Shown: in pieces, positions 412 to 15,720 of the stretch | How positions within the stretch are numbered: position 1 is the stretch's first letter | Layout of the letters: the number at the start of each line of letters is the position of its first letter | Origin: Sarcomyxa edulis | Lineage: Eukaryota > Basidiomycota > Agaricomycetes > Agaricales > Mycenaceae | Reading direction: 5' to 3' | NCBI GenBank assembly: GCA_009761415.1 | Contig: QUOL01000016.1 | Location: 372,001 to 436,000 of the forward strand | DNA length: 64,000 bases | Notes under the pieces: model-generated | What the model saw: the letters and a program-made list of their open reading frames with translations, nothing else | What the model was told of the DNA's origin: nothing | Database searches by the model: none | Translations under genes and position numbers: made by a program

Positions 412-1027
412 CGTTGCTGTGCTCGACGGAATGTATTACGTTCGTCCCCTCTCTGCCGGTATGATGACGCTGCTCTCTCTCGTTGTTTCTTTCGATTTCG
501 CATTATCTGTAGTTTACCATACTCTCCATACTCGCGCGTTCACTTATCGGTATGACACGGACGAAATATCTTCGCAGTACTTACGATACCCTATGCATTG
601 TTTATGCACTTTCCACGTTACGAACATTAATTTGAACATTTCGCTCAAGCTATTGCTTTGAGCTTTGGCTAGCCTTGGTGACCGGATGGTCATCCAATTG
701 CACAATCGACATTTGTCAGTGTCACGAATCGGTCACTGACCAATCACCGATTGTGACAGCGGGATATAATCGCACGTGATTGCCGGACGCGTAGTCCGTC
801 GGCTGTTCCCTTTCCTGGATGGTGCGTCTCACCGGCTTGTGTCCGGTACGGAAATATTGCTGACTGCAAACAGCTTTCCTATGGTCTAGCACGCAACACT
901 GACATCTGGTGGCCGAAATAATTCGCGCACACGGCCGTATACACCGGTATATATACCCAGCGCCATGCATCATCTTTCCAATCATTACCCACCCATACTC
1001 CGCGGTCAATCATTTCTCTAAACTATC
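412..1027. other. Intergenic region, 3' UTR then promoter of the next gene
   Basis: No convincing gene is seen. The first 250 bases are T-rich and are probably 3' untranslated sequence. A hairpin lies at 720-758, and a TATA-like stretch (TATATA) near 948 lies about 75 bases before the next start codon. Confidence 0.5.
720..758. repeat. Imperfect inverted repeat (hairpin)
   Basis: The arm TGTCACGAATCGGT (720-733) is mirrored by ACCGATTGTGACA (746-758). One extra base in the left arm is the only defect. It lies between two genes and could be a terminator structure or a fragment of a small inverted-repeat element. Confidence 0.5.
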
Positions 1028-1749
1028 ATGCACGATCAAAAACCCCAAGGGCCTTTCAGATTCTCTGGAAGCTCGTCTTTCGACTACTCTATGCCCGAGC
1101 ATCATGCCTGGCGTTATGAAAGAATGCCCTTCAACCATTTCTACCGTCGCGGTCGCGGTGGCTCTCGTATCCTCTGGTTCCTCATCGGTGTAGGTACCGC
1201 AACGTGGTGGAGTTGCCATAAGGAGGCGCACTCTAATGGGCGGTATTTCTCGCATTGCTATAATCCCCACATCCGCCCGGGTCCCCCGCCACCGGTAGAC
1301 AACAACGCGAACTCGCTTGCGAACCGTCAATGGCAGGAAAGATTGCGCAATTTCAATAATATGCCACCTGCTACGAGCTCCCCTCTTCCGCCTCCAGGTG
1401 TGCAGTGGGGTTTCGGTCAACAGTCACAAGCACAACAGTGGGAGGAGGAAAAGGAGAGAATGTGGGCTCTGGGTAGACAAGCCGGGGATAGCGTTCGTTC
1501 TTCTCCCTGTCCGTGATACTTCTTCTCATTGATGGGGTCTTCAAGCAGATGGCAGAAATGTCGGAGACGACACTCGAATCAATATTGACTACCGTCGAGG
1601 CATTGCGCTCCGTGAGTTCCTAGTCGACCAACCATATCCTTACTCAGTGACTCCCACAGAAATTGGCTGAACATCGTGCTGAGAGAGCAGCGGATAAGTC
1701 GCACGAGCCCCGCCGTCATAACGAACACGTCTTTACACCCAAACACTAG
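1028..1749 (+). CDS. Small single-pass membrane protein whose last exon is interrupted by a transposon
   Basis: Three exons fit: 1028-1492, 1549-1611 (or from 1546) and 1660-1749, with GT-AG introns and a continuous frame of 205 residues. A short hydrophobic stretch (ILWFLIGVGTATWW, about residues 46-60) suggests one membrane pass. It is followed by a Pro-rich linker and a charged helical C terminus. From base 1691 the exon runs into the left terminal repeat of the KDZ element, so the last 19 or so residues and the stop codon are transposon sequence. The original tail lies at 15656-15720: joining 1660-1690 to it keeps the frame and gives a coiled-coil-like end (ERAERQKLLDKQLEDEKN), about 207 residues in total. 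Function is unknown. Confidence 0.7.
1683..1690. repeat. Left target-site duplication
   Basis: GAGAGCAG, identical in sequence and orientation to 15648-15655. The flanking bases differ (A before the left copy, C before the right copy), so the duplication is exactly 8 bp. From memory, 8 bp duplications are reported for Zisupton/KDZ transposons. Confidence 0.85.
1691..1743 (+). repeat. Left terminal inverted repeat
   Basis: It matches the reverse complement of 15595-15647 at 42 of 53 positions without gaps. The best preserved parts are GCCGTCATAAC (1712-1722) and TACACCCAAA (1734-1743). It also codes for the transposon-derived C terminus of the interrupted host gene. Confidence 0.85.
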
Positions 1750-1769
1750 GTCAGCCCGCTGCACTCTCA

Positions 1770-3170
1770 GACATATGGTTGACTTTGACCATAATATCTG
1801 CACAAAGCAGCTGTAGTAGAGGTATATATGGTTGGTGTAGTCCTTAGCTTATGAAACGGTAGAAATTGACCATACTCGTGTCAGAGCTCACAGCCGGGTT
1901 CTTTCAATACGGTTGTCGATTACCATATCCCATAGGAGGGGACATATAGTGAGCTTCTACCATACCTGCCGGCCTCTGCATATAGCTGAACCCCACCATA
2001 GAATCCAGATCTGGAGGTATAGTCATCAACCACCATACCTCGTAGAACTGCTCCGTACGGTGCGCCTTCACCATACCTTGTAGGACCAATCCGTACGGTG
2101 GGCTCCCACCATACCTCATAGGACCACTCCGTACAGTGCGTCTCCACCGTACCTTGGAGGACTGGCGCTCCGCATTCCATACGGTGAGTTTTCGACAAAC
2201 GGTCAGCTTCTACTATACCTGCTGACTTTTGCATATAGCTGAACCTCACCATAGAGTCCGTATTTGGAGGTATAGTCATCAACCACCATACCTCGTAGAA
2301 CTGCTCCGTACGGTGCGCCTTCACCATACCTTGTAGGACCAATCCATACGGTGGGTTCCCACCGTACCTTGTAGGACTGCTCCACATTCAATACGGTGCA
2401 CTTTCACCATACTTTATGGAACCCTCTGTACGGTGAGTTTTCACCATGCCTCGTAACCCTCCGTATAGTGATAAACCACCATATTCACTGGTTTCCGCAC
2501 ATAGCTGATATCCACCATATAGCTTGTCCCTCAAAGTGATAGTTGTCAGCCACCGTACCTCGTGGGACTCCTTTGTACGGTGTGCTTCCACTATATCTGA
2601 TGGCTCTGTGATCTTTCAGTTGTCAATCACCATACCTCAAAGAGTGGTACCTCCCGCTTGTATGGTGAGCCTCCACTATATCTGCTACCTTCCGCATATA
2701 GCTGAAACGCACCTTATAGCTTTTGGAAGTATAGTGGGAAATCACCGTACCTTGTAGAGGTATTTTTTCTGTACGGTGAGCGTCTGTCTTATGATCTGTG
2801 TCCACCATATCTACTGACCTTTGTAGCTATAGTCGCCAAATGACTATACCTTGCAATGCCCAACTCACGGTGAGTATCTACTATATATGTTCACTACTCC
2901 TTGTTATAATCACATGGGCACTACAATATGCGGTGCGATGGGGCACCGGGCTGTTCTCCTGATATCTATGTTCTCCTCAAGATGAGGAGAATGTATATAT
3001 ACAGGGGTCTCAGAGTTCGGCCCTCGCACTGTCATTTATTTTTATTTTTATCATTGAATTATCTAGTAGAGTCGTCTACCACCGTACTTAAGTCATGGTC
3101 ATATGGCAATTCCCCACCATATATTATACACCACTTTAGTCTATGGTGAGGCTTCACTGTAACTGCTCAA
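1770..3170. repeat. Left subterminal array of short inverted motifs
   Basis: More than twenty copies of CACCATA or CACCGTA alternate with TATGGTG or TACGGTG, so each unit of roughly 40-50 bases is itself a potential hairpin. Typical spacers are CCTTGTAGGAC and CTCCG. A higher-order tandem duplication of about 240 bp is visible: 1985-2095 is nearly repeated at 2225-2340. Open frames here are repetitive by-products, not genes. By analogy with other large DNA transposons, the motifs could be transposase binding sites; this is inference. Confidence 0.8.
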
Positions 3171-3288
3171 ATCTTAGCGGCGTTTTTATTGGTGCTTTCC
3201 CAGGAACTTAAACACGCTGAACTGGTCTTGACTCTTGGCATCGAAAATGAAAGACTATATTGTATATTAACGAGGGAAAATCACAATT

Positions 3289-4295
3289 TTATTTTGATCT
3301 CGACGCCGACACCATCATGGAAACGAGGCATTTTGCCGTCGACGAGCTTAGGCCAAACGCTCGCTGGATCGAGGCGATCCATTTGACCCGTCCAACCTCA
3401 TCAAAAATCCTTCGAAGCTCTGCCAAATCCTCCCCGTCCTTCCCAAGATCTTCCATGAACCTGCTCACATCTTCCGAAATCTCCACATCATCATTTGAGT
3501 CTGACCCGTTGCTGCCTCCTTCGAATTCGTAAGCTGATGTTGGAGTCACTGAAGCCGCAGGATAGGAGGGAGACGCTGACACGGGGTAACGCCAGGAATG
3601 GGCCAGGGCAGGCTTTGTAGGAGTGGGCATTGGAGATGGTGAAGTAGGAGTCCTAGTTGTACGATAGGGAGCGGGGGTAGGTGGTTTTGCTGTGCCGTGA
3701 GTGACCTTCTTTGTTGGCGTAGTAGAAGATGCGATTGCAGAACGGGGTAGGTAGCGATTACCTACCGCTCGAGCAACCCAGTCAAGGCCAAACGGCAGTG
3801 CGATTGACCGTAAGAAGGTGTGCTCCATGAATTCGATCGAAGATGTAGACGAAGGAATGGATTGGATGTTTGCAGAAGCAAAGACGGTGATATTGTGACT
3901 CATTGATGTTTCGTCGACAATTGATTGCGGGGGCCGTTCACCTTGAACGTGGAAAATCACGGTGCCTACACCACACATTCGATCCAATGCACACGCCTGC
4001 ACAATGGATGAGAAAAACAGCATACAGAGATATACGTCAGGATACTCACCGTGTCTTGAATGAGCTCCATACACGCTGCACGGGTAGTCTTGCGATCCTC
4101 AACCTCAGATTGCCAGTCCTTGTCAAATTTTCCCAAAGGTGGTACTTTGCCATCCGTTGACCATCCACGGGTATTACGAGCGAATTCCCCACTATAAAAA
4201 TAAGGCAACATATCTTTTGGCTGCGTATGGAGAGTTTTGGCGTAGCGGGATGCAGCATAGGTTGGTGGAGTCTTCTGCCACGGGTTGGTAGTCAT
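3289..4295 (-). CDS. Unknown transposon cargo gene, 317 residues
   Basis: Two exons fit: 4295-4050 and 3996-3289, separated by a 53-base GT-AG intron in phase 0. The N-terminal 170 residues look folded (aromatic and Cys-containing, starting MTTNPWQKTPPTYAASRY). They are followed by a Thr/Pro/Ser-rich linker, an acidic patch (SNGSDSNDDVEISEDV) and a C-terminal helical part. I do not recognise the family. An open frame extends upstream of 4295 in another phase, so a further 5' exon cannot be excluded. It lies just inside the left array and is transcribed toward it. Confidence 0.6.
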
Positions 4296-5279
4296 GACCC
4301 AGCGACGAATATCGGAAGAGATGGAAAATCAGGTGTGGGCAGATGAAGTTCGAAGCACTGCCACCGCAAAATTCCGGGCCTCCTTCCTTCTCTTCGACGT
4401 TGAGCTCATGCATTGGGAAACACTTTTCTCTACGGTGTGCCACCACATAAAGTCTCTTCTAGTATACAAGAATGAGATTGCGTATGTACTTTAGCTTACA
4501 AAATCTTAGTTTAAGCCCCAGTCAAGTCTGGGTGTTTTGACTTTTTCGGATGATGGCACTGCCACCCCACCGCAGCTACGGATCTCCTTGAGTGCAATCA
4601 TGACATTGCTTTAAAGTACCTCAGGATTCATTGAGACATGGCCCAACAATAGTGGGAACGTTGCGTGCGCAGATGGAATTCATTAATGTTTTAAATGCAT
4701 AATATTGAATTGAAAATATGTTTTAAATGCATAATACGACAGTATTCCACCCGAAGGACAGGGTTACAAGAGGAAAGGAGGTGTACAGATATAGTCATGG
4801 GCTGCAGAAGCCAAAGATATAGGGGAAGAACAATAAAAGGCCCGTGAAGCAAACATGAGGGAGCGGTTTGGGAACGAAGTGATAGATAAACATGTGGGAT
4901 ATCCTGAGCGGACTCGGAAGGGGAAATGTACCAAGGGGAGTGGGGGGAAAAGAGCAAACGTACTGGATACTGATGTTTCCCCACCTCTCGTCTACCATGC
5001 CCCTTCCCAACCCTCCCAAGACAGACAACGATTGCACAGAAGCTACAATGACTGTTAGTTAGTAAATCTGTCTGTCTGCCCAAAGATCAACGACATACCG
5101 AGCATAGCCTTTGATAGTTGTGGGGGAAGAAGAAATCAAGAGCGGAACCCAGTTGAATAAATGAGGGTCAGCTTATATGGCAGTCAGGATGCGCACGGAC
5201 CAGCTCTGCAATGTTTGGGTCTGATGTCTTCACACGTGGTGTCGGTGGCAACCTTCCGAGTCGGCGAGGAAAGCTCAGC
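4296..5279. other. Intergenic region inside the transposon
   Basis: It separates two divergent cargo genes and probably holds both promoters. The only structure seen is a 17-base direct repeat, TGTTTTAAATGCATAAT, at 4687-4703 and 4719-4735. Open frames on the minus strand here have no splice or composition support. Confidence 0.5.
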
Positions 5280-5945
5280 ATGGCTGCAAAGACAGACACT
5301 AAGCATACACGTTATTATGCAAGGTACGCTATGATATCTTCTCGCAGCTAACTTACTATCATTCATGTCTTCTATCTCTGTAGACATCAGGCTGCGCTCC
5401 GAGAGAGCGCCCGTCAGCGATGGCATGAACGCGGAAAACATTATCGGACCACAAGACGGCTTAACAACTCACAGACATCGGAGAGTGACTCTGATTACAT
5501 ACCCGAATCTTCAGACTCTGAGTGCTCCACCAGTAGTTCCGATACCGACATGTCATACGGCTCAGATAGTTCCTTTCATCGGGGCGAGCCTCGCGGAATC
5601 GACCCATTTCTCACTGCCTACCATTCCTCCAACTGGGACGTATCCCTTCGACTTACCAGCAAATCCATACTCGCGATTATGCAAGACGAGTCGAACCTCT
5701 GGGCCGCACAATGGGGAGGGAAGCATTGTTGGCAGGACATGTATAAGTTGCTGAGCCAGGATGAAGTGGCGCAGAGAGACTCGGATATAGTTGCACATAT
5801 GGATAGAGCAGAAGACTTATTTGAGGCTTTCCATGGAGCTTGTGCCCTCATAGACTTAGATGATGAGGTTGAGTATAGTGATTTGATTACGCAACTTGAA
5901 GACGACCTTCGACTACTAGGAGAGGTGTGGACAAGCTCTCCCTAG
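5280..5945 (+). CDS. Unknown small cargo protein with a basic Arg/His N terminus, 201 residues
   Basis: Exons 5280-5323 and 5384-5945 join across a 60-base intron in phase 2. The first 50 residues are strongly basic (RYYARHQAALRESARQRWHE), resembling a nucleic-acid-binding or nuclear basic helix. Then come a Ser/Asp-rich acidic patch and a C-terminal half that looks globular, ending in an acidic helix. Basic segments of this RYY.RH type recur, from memory, in proteins beside KDZ transposases of mushrooms; the role is unknown. It ends 24 bases from the convergent coiled-coil gene. Confidence 0.65.
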
Positions 5946-5968
5946 AGATTAGAATAATTACGAAATAT

Positions 5969-8274
5969 CTATGCCATTGTGATATCGCCTCCTTCCTGAA
6001 CAACCACTTGTAAGGACTCTTCGACATCCTCTCCTGCAGTACGATGCATGGAATTGATTGAGGTCAGCATTCTATTGACCTGAAGATGTCGCACACGCTG
6101 TTCGTACTGGAGAGAACCGTAATCTGGAGCAAGAAGATCATCGACCGTGAGACACGCCGCATCGCAATATGCTTTGATGAAAAAGGCACGGGGGCGAGGG
6201 TGTAAAACCTCGCTCTTCATCGACTCGGTGATTGTGAATTTGTCGCGTGTAGATTTCACTGACCACGTCTTCCAGAAGAAAAAGTCCAGGATAGCATAAT
6301 CGATACTGCACCCACAGTGCAGATGATCTTGGTGAGGTTCCGTATTTTCTGTTGAGGACTTTGATACGAGAGAAGGGTAGCCGACCCCTTGGACCTGGAA
6401 CTTTGCATTGCCAAAGCCGTCCGATAGTTTGACGTCGCGATGTTTTTGGTGAAAGATGCAGATAATGTTTCCTCGGTTGGTTTTGAGAATATGGAGAGTG
6501 AGCCCACGGCTCGTTGTTCCTGCGCGAGGAGCGAGGTCTTGGTTCTCGCGAATTTTTCGCTTGAAATCATATGTGAGTGGAGTTTGGTTGGTCAAAAACT
6601 TAGTGATAGCCCTATCGATTTGTGCTGCGTGATATCGTGAGCAAGACTGACTATCAGGATTTGATCGAAACTCACCAGCCAGCTCAGCCTTTGCCTCAGT
6701 ATCTAAATCCTCGTAGCTGGTGGTACTTTTTTCATCTTCATCGGCTGCTTGGGTGCGCTTTCTCTTCTTCGATACTTTCTTTGTATTGACGGCCTCCTCA
6801 GTGTCGGCCTCCTCAGTTTCGGCCCTGTTGCCTCCAATGATCTGGAGAAGTGTGGCCTTTGCCCCCGCAATCGACTGCTTCAAAATTGATATCTGTTCTT
6901 CCCACTCTACGGACTCCTTCATACCCACTGATGAACGAACATCCCTTAGCGCTTCGTTGAGCGCATCCCGGAGTCCTGAAAGAATGCTCGCCTGTCCAAC
7001 TAATGTACCAGCACCTGTCAGTCGAGGTGGAAACAGTGTGTTATCCAAGCCGCTTTGTTCCCCGGTTATCAACTTCATCTCGGCATCTTCTGGACGCTGG
7101 GACATCAATTTCTTGTCAGTAGATTCCTTTCTATCAGCATTTATAGCACATACCATCTCCTTGGGCTTTGTATTCGCTTCTCTTTCGACTCTTTCTTTCT
7201 CAACACGCGCCGCCACCTCGGCAACCTCTCTCTCAACCCGTTCCTTCTCAACACGCGCCACTATCTCAGTGGCCTCTCCTTCCACCCTCTTCTGTTCGAT
7301 GTGTGCTGCTATCTCAGCAGTGTCTTTCTCAGCACGCGCCGCCACCTCATCAGTCTCTTTCTCCACCCTCTCCTTCTCAACACGCGCCGCCACCTCGGCA
7401 GCCTCTCTTTCTACCCTCTCCTTCTCAACACGCGCCGCCACCTCATCAGTCTCTTTCTCCACCCTCTCCTTCTCAACCTGCGCCGCCACCTCGGCAACCT
7501 CTCTTTCTACCCTCTCCTTCTCAACACGCGCCGCCACCTCATCAGTCTCTTTCTCCACCCTCTCCTTCTCAACCCGCGCCGCCACCTCGGCAACCTCTCT
7601 TTCTACCCTCTCCTTCTCAACACGCGCCGCCACCTCGGCAGCCTCTCTTTCGACCCTCTCCTTCTCAACACGCGCCGCCACCTCGGCAGCCTCTCTCTCT
7701 ACCCTCTCATTCTCAAGACGTGTCGCCACCTCGGCAGCCTCTCTCTCAACTCTTTCCTTCTCAACATGCACCACTATCTCAGCGGCTTCTCCTTCCATCC
7801 TCTCCTTTTCAATGCGTGCCGCCACATCAGCTGCTTCTCCCTCGACTCTTTCCCTCTCAACACGTCTTGCTTTTTCCTCTTCAACACGTACCTTCTCCTC
7901 AGTGTCTATAATGAGGATTTTTTTCTCGACTGACTTGAGCTTGGCTAAGAGAGCGTTTAATTGGGTGTCCGCGGCTGACATTGCCTCGAGAGCCTCTCGT
8001 TTAGCTTCTAAAGGGTGCGTAGATCAATAAACTTTGAACAGATTTTTGTGAGAGTCTCTACTCACGAAGACCACCACCTTTTGCACGTCGAGGGATTCGT
8101 TGAACCGCGTCGTTATTTTTCTTAGTAGAGAAATAAAGTTCCCTCGCCACTTTGACTCGACTTTGAATTTCGGACACATCTTCAAAAAAATTTAGCCATG
8201 GGGTTTAAGTTTTGTAATTGCATCGCACCTTCAGAAAGCTTTCGACGTTCATTATCTGACGGATTGGTTGTCAT
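5969..8274 (-). CDS. Long repetitive coiled-coil cargo protein, up to 732 residues
   Basis: Exons 8274-8229, 8179-8066 and 8007-5969 join in frame. The middle of the protein is about 14 tandem copies of a 16-residue unit (VEREAAEVAARVEKER), which would form a long highly charged coiled coil. A Lys/Arg-rich patch (KKRKRT) that could be a nuclear signal and a C-terminal domain of about 230 residues follow. Two in-frame stretches look like unspliced introns because they start GTATGT or GTGAGT and end CAG (57 and 51 bases, near 7097-7153 and 6630-6680); if spliced, the protein is 36 residues shorter. The C-terminal domain is not recognised. A structural or transposase-partner role is only a guess. 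Confidence 0.65.
7190..7860 (-). repeat. 48-base tandem repeat inside the coiled-coil gene
   Basis: Roughly 14 imperfect copies of a 48-base unit, each coding for 16 residues. Neighbouring units are often almost identical while distant ones differ, which indicates recent expansion by unequal exchange or slippage. All length changes keep the frame. Confidence 0.85.
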
Positions 8275-8347
8275 GTCTGGTTTTTTGAAAGTGTTGTGTT
8301 ACAAATTGTATGTGCCGGTTTGATATTTTGTCGATCAGTCACAAAAC

Positions 8348-8431
8348 CTAGTCGCAAATCCTGGTCGCGAAGCCTGGTCGCGAAGCCTGGTCGCGAAGCT
8401 TAGTCGCGAAGCCTGGTCGCGAAGCCTGAGA
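8348..8431. repeat. 13-base tandem repeat
   Basis: Six copies of CTGGTCGCGAAGC and variants, followed by a partial copy. It lies just upstream of the coiled-coil gene start (8274, minus strand) and so may fall in its promoter. Confidence 0.85.
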
Positions 8432-8799
8432 GTTTCCACACATATTATATTTGCGTAGATTGCTCCGGGCAGAGCAACATGTTTCTGAAGAATATATAAG
8501 TATGAATGGTAATTACCAAGTGACCTGGACAGATAAAAGCCACCACAACAATGAATTCTGTTGCTCGGATGTGAACGATCCCAAAGATAACGGTACAGGC
8601 CAACGTACGCGCAATGGCTCCAGTGGCACAATTGTTGCATTTTGTAACTCGATATAATTTTTCTCTAAATTTCTGGTTATCCTTCATATATATCTATTGA
8701 CTATGAGCGTAATACCATCTGCCATGGATGAGAGACAAAAAGACTCTGTACTTTACCTTGAAGTTTCGTGCAAACACTCCGAGTAATAAGCCAGAAAAA

Positions 8800-8892
8800 A
8801 AACACCCCCAGGAATCGAACCTGAGATCTGCCGATTGAAATAATTCACGTGATTTCAAACCACTACGCAGACACCACACTAACTACGCTAAG
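8800..8892 (-). tRNA. tRNA-like sequence, possibly a tRNA pseudogene or tRNA-derived element
   Basis: On the minus strand there is a perfect B box (GGTTCGATTCC), an A-box-like CTGCGTAGTGG, a pairing T stem, and a run of eight T that would end RNA polymerase III transcription. TCTGC and GCAGA could form an anticodon stem around an intron-containing loop. The 3' acceptor half (GGGTGTT) does not pair with any candidate 5' half, so an intact tRNA could not be built and the amino acid is undecided. Confidence 0.45.
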
Positions 8893-8981
8893 ACACCGAT
8901 ATGCTTGGGAGACTTTATAATGGCCATAACCTCTGGCCAGCTGATCAAAATGACAAAAATGGCGGAGTCTGACAACTGTAC

Positions 8982-9060
8982 AGTCTAATTTAGACTCAGT
9001 GATGACATCATATCGAGTAAGAAGTCTTGATTTCAAGACCTCGGACTCGATATGACATCA
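8982..9060. repeat. Nested inverted repeats
   Basis: AGTCTAA-T-TTAGACT at 8982-8996 is a perfect hairpin. Next to it, a 16-19 base arm (9000-9018) pairs with 9045-9060 apart from a 3-base insertion, and encloses a second perfect hairpin GTCTTGA-TT-TCAAGAC (9024-9039). It may be a small nested inverted-repeat element. Confidence 0.7.
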
Positions 9061-9131
9061 TTGTGACAGTTTGTGACCATCACATACAGAGCAGACACCG
9101 AATATTTCATTGAACGTTGCCTCGACGTCGA

Positions 9132-10268
9132 CTATAAAATACCTAATTGTGATCGGTATGATGCTATGAGTAAGTCTTGATCATGTGTGATCTGCTTTTG
9201 CTTCTCAAGCGCCCGTGTCGAGCTTTCCGCCTTCGCTTCAGCCTGCTTCTTCTCACCGTCGGCCTTGAGCAATTTCTCATGCAGCAGCCGTGCAGTCTCG
9301 CGTCGGGATGCAATAAGGCTGATAAACATGTTACTGAACATGTTTATGGCTTCCTCCGTTCCCTTTTTGTTGTCGCGTCGCAGGTGGGCTGATGAGTAAT
9401 GGACGAGAGGTTTGACAGCATTTGCGTGCTGCGCAGTAAAGAAAAGCCAGCAACCAGTCTCATGTGAGACTTGCTCGCACTAGAGAGATACAATAGGAGT
9501 CAAAATACACCAGCAGAAATATTGCATTAGGACTTACACGTGCAATTATCTCCTCCATACAACGTTTAAACCTCTTGGTCGACAGAGCGACGGCTGAAGC
9601 ATGAGCACGTAACTGGCTGGGACGAGGAATTCCTTGGATACCAAGGCCTAAGCATGTTGAATGAACGAACGTAAGACAACAAACTCACGAAAAACCTCGG
9701 AGCCACGTCTAGCGTAATCCACAAAACCATATACTGGGTTTGTCATGGTGACTCGTGTGCGAACTGTCTCAGGAGTACTGTGTCTCTCAGACATATCCTC
9801 GTGCTCAGCTACGGGTGGTGGTCCCAGAACTTCAGGGAACATCTCGGGATCACGAGCTGGGGGGCGGAAACCAAGAGGACTGGTTGGTAATAACGCAGTG
9901 TCAACGGTGGTGGTATAATCCTGTCAAACCTAGTCATCGAACGAATCTCTCATAATCAAGAAAATGAAATCTACCCCGACACCACTTTCAGAACTAGGTG
10001 TGTGCGGACTACCAAGATTCACGTCTGGACTTTTCAGTCGCTCGAGCTAATTGTAAAGCCAATTAGGTATGAGCTAAGATATTAGGAAAGTTTTATGACG
10101 CACCGACGGCTTTGGTGTCTGGCTTGCAACCACTTGACGAGCTGCTAGCTGTGTGTCTAGATAGACCCTGCCTTTGATGGTGTGTATGCACTGTGTCATA
10201 AGAGGGGAATTGCTGCATCGGTGACAGTGTCTGGGTTTGGACCCCTTCTTTGCGGTTGGGATAGTCAT
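9132..10268 (-). CDS. Unknown cargo protein with C-terminal coiled coil, about 308 residues
   Basis: Five exons fit by phase: 10268-10104, 10046-9975, 9920-9689, 9647-9538 and 9479-9132. The N terminus has a Cys/His-containing segment (CHRCSNSPLMTQC), the middle is Pro/Ser-rich, a compact part follows (around CEQVSHETGCWLFF), and the C-terminal 70 residues are a charged helix rich in Glu, Lys and Ala. The first exon is the least certain because another frame in the same stretch has more natural composition. The family is not recognised. It is divergent from the transposase gene with about 120 bases between start codons, so the two probably share a promoter. Confidence 0.55.
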
Positions 10269-10389
10269 GGGTGAGGCGATTGACAAAGAAGAGAAAAATA
10301 TTTGTCCCTCGAATGATATGGTAGAAAAATACCATACAAAGGATCAAAGCTAACACCGTGCATAAACCAATAGAAATTTGACACTCACC

Positions 10390-13300
10390 ATGTCGTTATC
10401 GCCTCAGCCTGAGGCCGCGTACATATCTCTCGATACCCCACCTCCATCTCCAAATGATTATATATCTGTCGACAGTCCAAGAGCCAAGTCGGGTCTTTTA
10501 TCGAGCATGGCTTTTGCTCCAACTCCTACCAGATTGACCAGACGAGCAAAACCTGTAGCACTAAAGAAACGAAAGCGCGTCATCAGTCCTAGTCCTCAAA
10601 AAGAAGAGACAGTCATTGAAAATACCGGTTTGGACGATGGAATTTCTCAGGGACTTGGATCTGATGATGAATTCTGGGGTGCTGGCGATGATGGAACTGA
10701 AAGAAATGACATACTGGTGGAAGACTCTGGAAATGTTCCCGAGAATATCGAAAGCTATGATAGCTATGTTGATGCAGTTTTAGCTGGCGAGGCAATGTTC
10801 TATCAGATCTCAAAATCTCTGTTTCTCGTGAATGGCTGGGACAGTAGATCTACGACCAGTACGGTAAGCAGACTTCATGGCCTATCGACGTGTAGACTTA
10901 CTGAATTATATACAGAGAATTTGGTATCACCTCCAGACCGTTAAGATTGGTGAAGAAGTGGTCATTGTGTGTTTATGTCCTCGTGCCAGTCCAGATTCTA
11001 CGTGCATGCATGTACAGTTCCTGCATGAGTATCGTGGCGAGAGATTTCCAGATGATGGCACTTTCAATGAGGGTACGTTGATCATTATGCGGTGACACCG
11101 TTACTATCAAATTAATTCCTACAATTTAAGACTACGAGACACCTATCTGCTTCTCGCGTCAACTCAGCACTGATATCGATGAACCCCAATATATAACCCA
11201 TTTCTCTGTACCCTCTCCAAGACAACGTTCACTTGTGAGCCGTGCCGTTGTGAGCCACGATGGAAATGATGCAGGGAGTGGTGAATGGATCTGTAGCAAA
11301 GACCAGAGCCGTAACTGCGCACATATCACGAATGCCCGGCATTGGTTGCAGAAACTAGTGAAAGAGGATCCAGATGCACGCGATGAGAATGCTGGTGGTG
11401 AGGGAACCGAGCCCGTCAATTATCGAGGTATGCAGACCCAATTAATCCTGTCGACTCCCAATGTTGAATTTCTCATAGTACCCCGTGTCCGTCGTGTTGC
11501 CCGAGGCGAGAGTGCTGTTTCATACCAAAGCATTCCTCCACCTATTTGGGCGACTCTTCCAAGTGATCCTGTAGCAGCACGGATACTACCCTTACAATCA
11601 GCTCCAGTACTCATCTCGTTGACACCAAACGCGTCGTGCTGCTGTACCATACCCCGTCAAATATATACAGAGGCAGCACCCAAACAGCAACGTGGATGCA
11701 CCGTCTACACACTTGCATGTTCTTATGACAGTGTCATCGAATTGCAAGATTGTACCATATGCTCCCGCCGCTTTGTTGGACCCGATTGTCGTGAGCTTGG
11801 ACTATTCAACTTCAACAACCGCATTCTATTCACGCATGATCTACTGGACGAATACACTAGTGCCTATACTACATCAGAAACACCCTTTGTATCCTGGGTG
11901 GCTGTTGTCTCTCGACGCTATGAAGGCCATCAGTCAAAAGCCTCGTTTGTTAGCGAACAAATGTTTCGTTCAGTTTGGTTTGCATATGTGAGGCTACAGA
12001 GCCTCGATGGTGATATGAGCTGTCCGGCATGTGGACCCTCACCAGAAAATACAATCTGGGACGGCGTAACATTGGCCTTCAACCGGAAACATCTCCTGCC
12101 TTCTCTCGATCCACCTACTACGACCCACGTTAACTCGGTCTCTCGCAATCTTACCCGCTATGTCTGGAGCCAACAGCTTTTGCCTATACCACATCTTCGG
12201 AAGCTTATACGAAAGGTTATTGTTGGGCCGTCGCTTATTTTGCAAGAACAACAATCTAGCCTACATAGTGTCAGTGGCTTCGTTGCACAGCTTACGACGG
12301 CTCAAGAAGATGATCTCGAGCTTGAGGACAACAGCTCTATGGAGGAACTTGAAGAAGACGATGGAGAAGAAAGTTCCCTTGTTGTTCCAGCATCCGCTCC
12401 CGATAGCCAGCGTCTTACGAAGCAGAAACAAAGAGAAGAGGCTCAGAAACGGGCAGCCGCCAAAAAAAAGGAAGAAACACGCAGAAAAGCAGCACAGGCT
12501 ATCATGGACCGCGTGGAAGCAATACCCGGACTATCTTCTGCACTTACGGAGGTCAACACAGGATTGGGGGCGCTGTTTGCAGAGCAATTTGGTATGGGGG
12601 CATTAGCTATCAGGCGACAGGCGCATCCAGTCTACCACCGGCTTTTAGTTCAGGTATGTTGTACATTGTTCATATTGTATTGTGCAGAGTTTGTAACAAT
12701 GCCGATGTCTCTAGATCAGTGCGGAAGAATCAGTCCTTCAAATGACGACACGACCCGCTCTGCACGATCTAAAAATGTTTCTTGACCATCCCACGTCAGA
12801 AAACTCATCCCGCCTAGTCACAATACCAGCTCTTCACGACGTCTTACAGCATGAATGGTCTTTGATGGGACATCATTCCAGTGCTATGTGGAAGATTTGC
12901 GAATGGATTTATGAACGGGGTCAAAGGGTATTGGATAAGTTGACCGTTCACCCTGCTCTGGTGCATAATGTGAAAGAGCAAGAGAACACAGCAGATTGGA
13001 TGAATGTACGAAGCATGATTATATCTATTCAGTAAATCGGACTAATCTCCTGGCATGGCAATCTAGACAGGGTGCTGTTATAGCTTGCCTCAGATCCGCC
13101 ATCGACCAAAATATCCCGGACTGAAGCACGATGTTCGAGGAGAGGTTGGCGGTAATCGGGGTGCTAAATGCTCAAAATTCTATTCTCAGTATGGTGAGCA
13201 GCGATTGACCGGAGGGATCATGTGCGTGTGGTGCACACATAGCATCTGCTATGGATTTCATTGCATTCCCCGCGGAGAGGGCCGAAACGATGTGTTTTCC

Positions 13301-13672
13301 GCCATTGTGACGAGATGGAAGGAACCACCCAAGCGAATCATTTATGATTTCGCGTGCGCTCTTGGGCCTTACTGCATGATCCGAGAGCCCGACTTCTTTG
13401 CAGATACCTTATTCTTGATTGACGCATTTCATGCCAAGGGCCACACCAAATGTTCGCCAGCTGCATTTCTCACAGCATACTCAAACATCGACCCTCGTTT
13501 GGCTCATATCAATTCGAGTGCAGCAGAATGTGGAAACGGAGGCATCAAACGGATTCGTAAATCTGTCAGTTATATGTCTCAAGACCGGGCCATAGTGTAC
13601 ACGAAGGTTTTTGTGTCAATTTGGAACCGCCATAGGATTAGGAAAATGCTGAACGATGGTACAAGTAGGTAA
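10390..13672 (+). CDS. KDZ-family transposase with cysteine clusters, 1016 residues
   Basis: Exons 10390-10863, 10916-11072, 11131-12653, 12715-13005 and 13067-13672 join with all phases consistent. The N terminus is acidic and disordered. Two C-x-C...C-x-H clusters resembling SWIM zinc fingers follow (CLCP...CMH near 10975-11025; C...C-x-H near 11283-11325). Next come a cysteine-cluster domain (CTICSRRFVGPDC and CPAC, 11755-12032), an acidic and Lys/Arg-rich linker, and a C-terminal KDZ RNase-H-like core. The core shows IYDFAC (13343), FLIDAFHAKGHTKC (13411) and NSSAAECGNGG (13513), the pattern I associate with the D/D/E residues of KDZ transposases of the HMGXB3/CxC-type branch. It would cut and join the element ends. 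The subtype number of the Cys cluster is uncertain. Confidence 0.82.
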
Positions 13673-13705
13673 ATAATAGCTATGCAGGAATGCTACTGTG
13701 TGCGA

Positions 13706-14232
13706 TCATCGTGTATAATGAGCAGGGACTGGTATGGGAACACAGCCCGGACGTGAGTTGATCGAGGTATGAAGCTCACGTATGAGAGAAGATATTCCCC
13801 AACATTCCTCATCGCGCAGATCCCACGGACGATAAATAAGAAAGCCGCGGGGAAGAAAGTATTCTGGTCCCCGGACATTCGCAGGGGTCCAACCCAAAAT
13901 GAGCGGGTCATACACAATGTAGCCTTGGGTATCGGGCTCCATGGCATCCCAAAGGTCTTCCTGAGCATAAAGCTCAATCCAGTTGGCATAATATCGAACA
14001 CGATGTGAAATAGGTCCGTCGGAACGAGTATCCTGGCAATAGATGAGTATGTACTGCACAGAACAGGATAGTAGACAGAACGTACGGGTATATAAACATA
14101 GATTTTGATGGATGGAAGAGCAAGGCATGCGGGCTCAAGACACGCAGGCGAGTCACAGACTCCCTAGAAAGACAAAAACAAAGTCAGAGTGACTCCTGTA
14201 CCCATGAAAAGGGGACGTACTATATCGTGCAT
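13706..14232 (-). CDS. Unknown small cargo protein, 138 residues
   Basis: Three exons fit: 14232-14221 (only four codons, MHDI), 14163-14086 and 14032-13706, all in phase 0. The protein is rich in Trp, Tyr and Pro (for example YYANWIELYAQEDLWDAMEP) and looks like a compact globular domain without signal or membrane segments. The family is not recognised. The very short first exon makes the start uncertain. It converges on the transposase gene and lies just inside the right array. Confidence 0.55.
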
Positions 14233-14259
14233 AGTGAAGTAAGTAATTTGCCCAGTAGC

Positions 14260-15490
14260 GGGGAAAATTTACGGAGTCGGTCAGTGATCGGGTATGGTGA
14301 CCAACGACCATTGACACGTCACACCAAGGAGTCTGACAATAGACGAAACAAGGTAATATATAATGGAGACCCACCATATGTTTGTGACCAACAATATGCT
14401 TACTTAGTGAGAGGGCCATTTGGGCTGCAAACCTTCAGCTGGTTGAGTCTCACTATAACGGTGACAAAAAGTATACAGTGAGAACGCACCATATACATGA
14501 GACCACGTAATATGGAAGGTGACAGCCATATTAGAAAAAGAAATAGTGGGCTTGAACTACAGCGCAAACAAGGTCCAAGTATGGGATGGATCTACCATAA
14601 CAGGTGAGAAACGGTGAAGTTTGGACGTTAGAAATAGCTATGGTAACAACTCACCATGACACGCTATGTATAGCGTAGACGCACGTAGGACCAAAGAATA
14701 GATCTGGCTGAAATGAGCCATCTATAGCGAGATCGGAAGATATGGTGAAAGCAAACCATACTCAGGCATCCGAGAGATATAGTAAGACTTCACCATGCCG
14801 CGAGACTGGGAGATATGGTAGGTATCCACCATAGCAATGAGACGACGAGAAGATATAGTGGAAAGCGAGCCATAACCACAAGATCGAGAGATATAGTGGG
14901 AATTCATCATAGACGCGAGACTGGGGGATATGGTGGAGGTCAATTATAGCCGCAAAACTAGAAGATATGGCGAAGACAAACCATAACTACGTGACCAAGA
15001 CATATGGTGAGGATTGACCATAGCCGCGAGACTGGGAGATACGGTGGATATTGGGCATAGCCATGAGACTGGAAGGTATGGTGAAAGCGAGCCATAACCA
15101 CAAGATCGAGAGATATAGTGGGAATTCATCATAGACGCGAGACTGGGGGATATGGTGGAAGTTGATTATAGCCGCGAAACTAGAAGATATAGCGAAAACA
15201 AACCATAACTACATGACCAAGAGATATGGTGAGGATTGACCATAGCCGCGAGACCACCGTGCCGCGAGACTGGGAGATATGGTAGGTATCCACCATAGCA
15301 ATGAGACGACGAGAAGATATAGTGGAAAGCGAGCCATAACCACAAGATCGAGAGATATAGTGGGAATCCATCATAGACGCGAGACTGGGGGATATGGTGG
15401 AGGACCACTCTATCAGCTGAGATGGACCCTATAGTCAGCACCTACCATAACGCTCTGACAACATGAAGACTAAGTATGGTAGCTCTCGAC
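14260..15490. repeat. Right subterminal array of short inverted motifs
   Basis: Many copies of GATATGGTG or GATATAGTG alternate with CCATA at about 30-base spacing, with spacers such as GCCGCGAGACTGG. A higher-order unit of roughly 230 bp recurs: about 14860-15050, 15085-15270 and 15325-15400 share long near-identical stretches. The core motif is the same as in the left array but the spacer sequence is unrelated, so the motif rather than a recent copy is what is conserved. Frames in this stretch are repeat by-products. Confidence 0.8.
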
Positions 15491-15594
15491 TGTATTTGCC
15501 GCTCAGCCATGAAGGGGACATTATGGTCATCATAAGCTATACTTGTTGAAGTCCAGCGGGCGGGACTGATGCTGAGTGCAAGTACGTGCTCGAC

Positions 15595-15647
15595 TTTGGG
15601 TGTAGGGACGTGTTTGTTATGACGGCCTGACACTTGCGACCTAGCCC
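15595..15647 (-). repeat. Right terminal inverted repeat
   Basis: Reverse complement partner of 1691-1743 with 11 mismatches in 53 bases. Mismatches cluster in the outer half (positions 1-21 of the repeat); the inner half is nearly perfect. Confidence 0.85.
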
Positions 15648-15655
15648 GAGAGCAG
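15648..15655. repeat. Right target-site duplication
   Basis: GAGAGCAG, the partner of 1683-1690, directly followed by the displaced end of the host exon. Confidence 0.85.
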
Positions 15656-15720
15656 AAAGACAGAAATTATTGGACAAACAGCTCGAAGACGAGAAAAACA
15701 GGCCTCGACGTCTTGTTTGA
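15656..15720 (+). pseudogene. Displaced 3' end of the interrupted membrane protein gene
   Basis: Read after 1690, this stretch continues the host frame for 21 codons to a TGA at 15718-15720. It encodes a charged helix (RQKLLDKQLEDEKNRPRRLV). It has no start or promoter of its own now. The 290 bases after it (15721-16012) are probably the original 3' UTR and the tail of the convergent transporter gene; no other gene is seen there. Confidence 0.8.

Follow-up and report, generated by a model that had tools for sequence, protein, structure and literature searches.

Boundaries of the Element and the Interrupted Host Gene

A locus of the basidiomycete Sarcomyxa edulis raises the question of whether a ∼14 kb segment lodged in a coding exon is a complete transposon, to which group it belongs, and what the genes carried besides its transposase may do. 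The locus lies in the window, i.e., the whole 64,000-nucleotide stretch of DNA that was analyzed (G000:C8:372001–436000); the genome searched comprised 35.6 Mb in 40 contigs, and introns and homologs suggest a fungus of the mushroom type. With regard to identity and boundaries, the segment at window positions 1691–15647 (13,957 bp) is, with high confidence, a complete KDZ-type DNA transposon that belongs to the CxC4 lineage, is present in a single copy, and may be autonomous. An earlier note on this DNA had claimed a complete KDZ element bounded to the base, and the following features bear out its boundaries.

1028..1690, forward strand: host gene, 5′ part (exons 1028–1492, 1546–1611, 1660–1690)
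1683..1690, forward strand: target site duplication (TSD), left copy (GAGAGCAG)
1691..1743, forward strand: left terminal inverted repeat (TIR), outer 9 bp CGGATAAGT
15595..15647, reverse strand: right TIR, outer 9 bp GGGCTAGGT
15648..15655, forward strand: TSD, right copy (GAGAGCAG)
15656..15720, forward strand: host gene, last exon, displaced 3′ end

The 53-bp TIRs (1691–1743 against the reverse complement of 15595–15647) matched at 42 of 53 positions and, within the limits used, ranked first among inverted repeats in the initial 30 kb, with a score of 30 against 18.6 for the runner-up. Fifteen mononucleotide shuffles of five CxC4 loci (this element and the four relatives described below), run with slightly different left and right limits, scored 13.8–17.6. 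The two copies of the TSD are identical at 8/8 positions. A scan of the first 30 kb, with the left end placed before position 10000 and the right end after position 14000, returned no other exact 8-bp duplication whose terminal bases matched at 17 or more of 30 positions. The element ends are CGG..CCC.

The element is inserted into the last exon of the host gene, which it cuts at position 1690. With the element in place, the host frame ends in ...KLAEHRAERAADKSHEPRRHNEHVFTPKH, and joining position 1690 to 15656, with one duplication kept, yields a frame ending in ...KLAEHRAERAERQKLLDKQLEDEKNRPRRLV. Homologs of the host gene were searched because an open stretch of such length could be due to chance. 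Four proteins (P0121–P0124) were found, of which P0122 and P0123 were informative on the junction. P0122 agreed with the joined product across the junction and has the terminus ...KVAEHRAEREQQRKLFEQQMQEQKKEPRHYV (...EPRHYV); P0123, from Psilocybe cf. subviscida, also agreed with the joined product and has the terminus ...KLAEHRAQREQQEKIEKELEEQRRNPPRLV (...NPPRLV). P0121, the closest homolog, and P0124 were apparent readings into introns and hence uninformative. The reconstructable empty site that had been proposed is therefore upheld, as the joined flanks restore a C-terminus common to P0122 and P0123, and no homolog with the TIR-encoded peptide as its terminus was found. Nor was the 14-kb arrangement encountered at the orthologous position in distant species, although the site itself could not be compared there. 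A second copy of the host gene was absent from the assembly.

The Transposase and Its Assignment to KDZ

All gene models were made by hand with GT–AG introns, without transcript data. That of the transposase is open.

10390..13672, forward strand: transposase, 1,016 amino acids (exons 10390–10863, 10916–11072, 11131–12653, 12715–13005, 13067–13672), with CxC4 and D521/D909/E969

The KDZ-associated cysteine cluster CxC4 was recognized in the transposase at 162.5 bits (Pfam cut-off 26.9), and its CxC/CxH cluster is one that we take to be SWIM-like. The Pfam KDZ model (PF18758) scored 18.9 bits on the transposase and 22.8 bits on the last exon alone, against a cut-off of 26.6, and hhalign gave E 4e-4 with a probability of 35%. 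Among 10 homologs scanned with the same model, seven of which had been picked for their database KDZ tag, four scored above the cut-off, five scored below it, and one had no match. The structure model of one transposase homolog resembled DDE transposases and integrases, and an RNase H-like fold with D, D, and E was found; the absence of a family from the list of structural matches does not exclude that family. It was also observed that the Pfam KDZ match begins at profile position 73–76 in nine of the 10 CxC4 homologs scanned, which fits the fold search, where the first catalytic Asp lies well upstream and is followed by a mostly helical insert. Gly817, which a by-eye alignment to the other KDZ copies of the genome had put in place of the first catalytic Asp, was dropped because the structural match, which begins close to residue 170 of the model, places this Asp at D521.

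Fungal KDZ transposases of the CxC4 type (Pfam PF18717) were reportedly described by Iyer et al. in 2014. The listed homologs of the present transposase, known as protein records from Infundibulicybe, Mycena, Laccaria, Coprinopsis, and others, are 40–78% identical to it in local alignments covering 30–100% of the searched transposase part. The KDZ label claimed earlier rests on the CxC4 domain, the homologs, and the fold, the score of the Pfam KDZ model alone being below cut-off. A Starship, or another large cargo element of different mechanism, would account for the size and the gene number. Starships carry a tyrosine-recombinase captain gene, however, and no tyrosine-recombinase domain occurred among the Pfam matches of the six gene products; the presence instead of TIRs with an 8-bp TSD and of a CxC4/DDE-like transposase makes this explanation extremely improbable.

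CxC4 Relatives in the Same Genome

CxC4 matched the genome at five loci, namely, this element and four relatives designated C2, C3, C34a, and C34b, whereas the KDZ model matched at least 93 stretches, all outside these five loci. C2 (contig C2, 1205699–1224796; 19,098 bp) and C3 (contig C3, 1026866–1060311; 33,446 bp) are flanked by the perfect 8-bp TSDs ATCTCAGG and CCATAAGA, respectively, and the subterminal inverted arrays of C2 share 96% identity over 2 kb. The terminal motif was defined by the ends of this element and of C2, the latter first spotted by eye. C3 served as an independent test of the motif and matched it at 9/9 positions at both ends, scoring 34, while the second-best pair scored 28. 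In the three elements with both boundaries defined, the outer 9 bp are CGGATARGT on one side and GG(C/G)(C/T)TARGT on the opposite side; the CGGATARGT end is situated upstream of the transposase in this element and downstream of it in C2 and C3, as though the interior had been flipped relative to the ends. A likely right end of C34a was recognized by similarity to the C3 ends, its left-end partner was sought and not found, and both ends of C34b were sought and not resolved. Gene C of C34b (see below) is split by ∼26.5 kb (G000:C34:2142763–2169264), probably by a nested insertion, and an inverted copy of the C34b array lies beyond the split. C3 contains open reading frames (ORFs) of a Gypsy-type retrotransposon (RVT_1, RNase H; reverse-complement frame 612–11916, L039–L041).

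A genome search with the TIR core of the earlier note, as suggested there, returned 12 sites at up to three mismatches against 10 for the reversed control; only the two ends of the element matched with 0 mismatches, the other 10 sites having three. Judged by this test, the element is single copy in the genome. The TIR core GCSGWYATAACRMRCAC had five exact genome matches (both ends of this element, both of C3, and one of C34a) and, at up to one mismatch, 11 sites in total against seven for the reversed control; as this core was derived from these very ends, the search shows only that no other exact copies exist. This core is absent from C2. The single copy and the mismatches at 11/53 TIR positions would also suit a decayed, immobile remnant. 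We consider this improbable, as the six gene models are open and the TSD is perfect. Moreover, a difference between the two TIRs seems usual in this family, given that the outer ends of C2 and C3 are unequal as well.

Genes Besides the Transposase

The earlier note had counted four unknown cargo genes. Six gene models (A, B, C, D, the transposase, and F) were found to be open in the element, giving five besides the transposase, and three of these (C, D, and F) are shared with the CxC4 relatives.

3289..4295, reverse strand: gene A, 317 amino acids (exons 4050–4295, 3289–3996)
5280..5945, forward strand: gene B, 201 amino acids (exons 5280–5323, 5384–5945)
5969..8274, reverse strand: gene C, 732 amino acids (exons 8229–8274, 8066–8179, 5969–8007)
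9132..10268, reverse strand: gene D, 308 amino acids (exons 10104–10268, 9975–10046, 9689–9920, 9538–9647, 9132–9479)
13706..14232, reverse strand: gene F, 138 amino acids (exons 14221–14232 (tentative), 14086–14163, 13706–14032)

Gene C, which contains charged repeats of 48 bp (16 amino acids) and a C-terminal domain in which His and Cys are conserved, is present in all five CxC4 loci, and its six matched stretches in the genome, counting the split copy in C34b, all lie within these loci. Gene D, with an N-terminal CxxC...CxH cluster, is present in four of the five (this element, C2, C34b, and C3; not C34a), which hold all four of its genome matches. Gene F, sought only in the retrieved stretches, was found in three (this element, C2, and C34b). 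Owing to their occurrence in five, four, and three CxC4 loci, C, D, and F look, from their distribution, like genes of the transposon family and not random pick-ups. The alternative, that the extra genes are passenger cargo acquired from the host without a role in transposition, draws on genes A and B, for which neither the other copies nor the remainder of the genome gave a match (E ≤ 0.001), and on the differing extras of the relatives: C2 carries a TET/JBP-like ORF, and C34b a weak viroplasmin-like one. The confinement of the C and D matches to CxC4 loci, the recurrence of F, and the fact that C, D, and F are open here despite matched stretches only ∼26–49% identical to those of the relatives argue against it, and a passenger origin of the set is accordingly judged unlikely.

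The TET/JBP-like dioxygenase ORF of C2 (reverse-complement frame 14375–14947, L042–L044) has an HxD motif and was sub-threshold in Pfam (E 0.0006, 19.5 bits, cut-off 34.9); no match was obtained against a solved TET structure. The weak domain in C34b (reverse-complement frame 12829–13257) is of the viroplasmin/RNase H1 N-terminal type (Cauli_VI, E 0.0062).

Genes A and B had no Pfam match at E ≤ 1, and ORFs in C2 and C34b likened by eye to gene B gave no phmmer match at E ≤ 1. The homolog search with gene C returned nothing at E ≤ 0.001 among 1,090 candidates, and the profiles of C and F had no convincing match in PDB or Pfam. Sub-threshold Pfam matches were Bflower_2 in the repeat part of the long ORF of gene C (35.9 bits, cut-off 38) and Med29 in gene D (E 0.018). 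The single-sequence structure model of the gene C domain was unusable, with a predicted local distance difference test score (pLDDT) of 33.6. An apparent frameshift near the start of gene C was explained away by the GT–AG intron 8180–8228.

Subterminal Palindromes and a Proposed Mechanism

1774..3161, no strand: left subterminal array, 16 dyads TAYRGT-N8-ACYRTA, with variable spacing, often 37–38 bp
14474..15494, no strand: right subterminal array, eight dyads TAYRGT-N8-ACYRTA
10317..10336, no strand: lone array-type dyad TATGGTAGAAAAATACCATA, lying between the D and transposase start codons

The two repeat arrays reported in the earlier note are present, and both proved to be built of one palindromic unit, TAYRGT-N8-ACYRTA. 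When the left array was subjected to 200 mononucleotide shuffles, this dyad did not occur. Genome-wide, it was found at 51 sites, 25 of them in this element, whereas its reversed control pattern was found at 62 sites, none in the element; the control count indicates that the motif is not enriched outside the element. The only dyad of the element outside the arrays is that at 10317–10336, between the D start codon at 10268 and that of the transposase at 10390. Single dyads also occur within the arrays of C3 and C34a. Besides these, three array-type dyads were noted within 265 bp at G000:C1:567452–567716, outside the known CxC4 loci, and may be a remnant.

The lone dyad suggests, by analogy, a self-regulated system of transposase plus accessory proteins. 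In En/Spm (CACTA), which has TnpA and TnpD, a second element protein binds many short subterminal motifs as well as the promoter. The likeness is one of logic only, i.e., a transposase with a second protein acting on subterminal motifs and a promoter, as the ends and the TSD length are different. In the mechanism proposed here, a predicted DDE transposase (D521, D909, E969) would make staggered cuts giving rise to the 8-bp duplications, and transposition would be of the cut-and-paste type with an 8-bp stagger. The accessory proteins C, D, and possibly F may bind the subterminal dyads and bring the element ends together; they may also control the divergent D/transposase promoter via the lone dyad. 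This accessory-protein model is plausible and is put forward tentatively.

Alternatively, the dyad separating D from the transposase could be coincidental, with the arrays being mere structural filler. Because the arrays themselves were used to define the motif, a test is provided by the promoter copy only, and the position of this copy was recognized after the fact; moreover, the dyad was seen at this place in one element, the D/transposase promoters of C2 and C34b having no repeated array dyad by the test used. Against coincidence, the number of dyads expected in 121 bp is 0.00009 when calculated from the remaining 26 sites and ∼0.0002 at the control rate, and the arrays of C3 and C34a hold the dyad as well. 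Coincidence is regarded as rather unlikely. The more general proposal, in which CxC4-KDZ elements are multi-component transposons whose accessory set (C always, D and F mostly) acts via the palindrome arrays while the promoter dyad closes a self-regulatory loop, is possible and slightly less probable than the model for this element. If it is true, a two-component logic like that of En/Spm would have arisen independently in another superfamily. With base-exact and similar outer ends for three CxC4 members, shared genes, and a candidate binding palindrome, the lineage becomes testable in a laboratory fungus with respect to the proteins needed, what they bind, and self-control by the element. These findings also show that the transposase gene alone understates the content of such an element.

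Comparison With Known Transposons

An element of this kind, a KDZ-type DNA transposon, is already known. In the accessible part of the report on Cryptococcus neoformans (PMC12810828), KDZ1–KDZ3 are ∼9.2–11 kb long with TIRs of 139–241 bp; KDZ1 (∼11 kb) has 241-bp TIRs and 8-bp TSDs, and the TSDs of KDZ2 and KDZ3 are 4–8 bp. These elements resemble the present one in their large size, TIRs, KDZ transposase with a zinc-chelating CxC, and (KDZ1) 8-bp TSD. They differ in being of type CxC1 with TIRs of 139–241 bp instead of CxC4 with TIRs of 53 bp, and that part of the report mentions neither accessory genes nor dyad arrays for them. The size of 13,957 bp, called large in the earlier note, is therefore less unusual than had been supposed, given these elements and the relatives of 19.1 and 33.4 kb (the larger with Gypsy-type ORFs inside).

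According to the sections of Kojima (2025; PMC12730594) that were available, Kyakuja has 7-bp TSDs and CA..TG ends without TIRs, 8-bp TSDs characterize Zisupton and one Dileera family, and CACTA/EnSpm has CAC..GTG ends with a 3-bp TSD (2–5 bp across its clade). The present element, with its 8-bp TSD, CGG..CCC ends, and TIRs, has the features of neither Kyakuja nor CACTA/EnSpm; the 8-bp TSD of the Zisupton/Dileera type, along with TIRs as reported for Zisupton, was found in this element, C2, and C3. From the same sections, the TET-bearing KDZ transposons (Kyakuja, Dileera, and Zisupton) are similar in being fungal KDZ elements with extra genes, and the sub-threshold TET/JBP-like ORF of C2 is a further likeness. 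They are unlike this element in that its six products had no Tet_JBP match in Pfam at E ≤ 1, a search that a divergent PE-type could escape. The earlier note knew of no described family with this gene set, and none was found in the open-licence literature as represented by listings and abstract openings, the founding KDZ paper being outside that scope. In the literature covered, a CxC4 lineage combining dyad arrays with a conserved set of accessory genes appears to be undescribed.

Other Features of the Element

A candidate tRNA near 8790–8905 was unsupported by ARAGORN at normal settings and by Rfam, relaxed settings giving only low-grade predictions. Between genes C and D lies an inverted repeat with 29-bp arms (83%) and a 2-base loop (window 9002–9061), of which no other genome copy was found at E ≤ 0.001. 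Just upstream of gene C, a 13-bp tandem repeat, CCTGGTCGCGAAG, is present in 6.3 copies (window 8347–8428).

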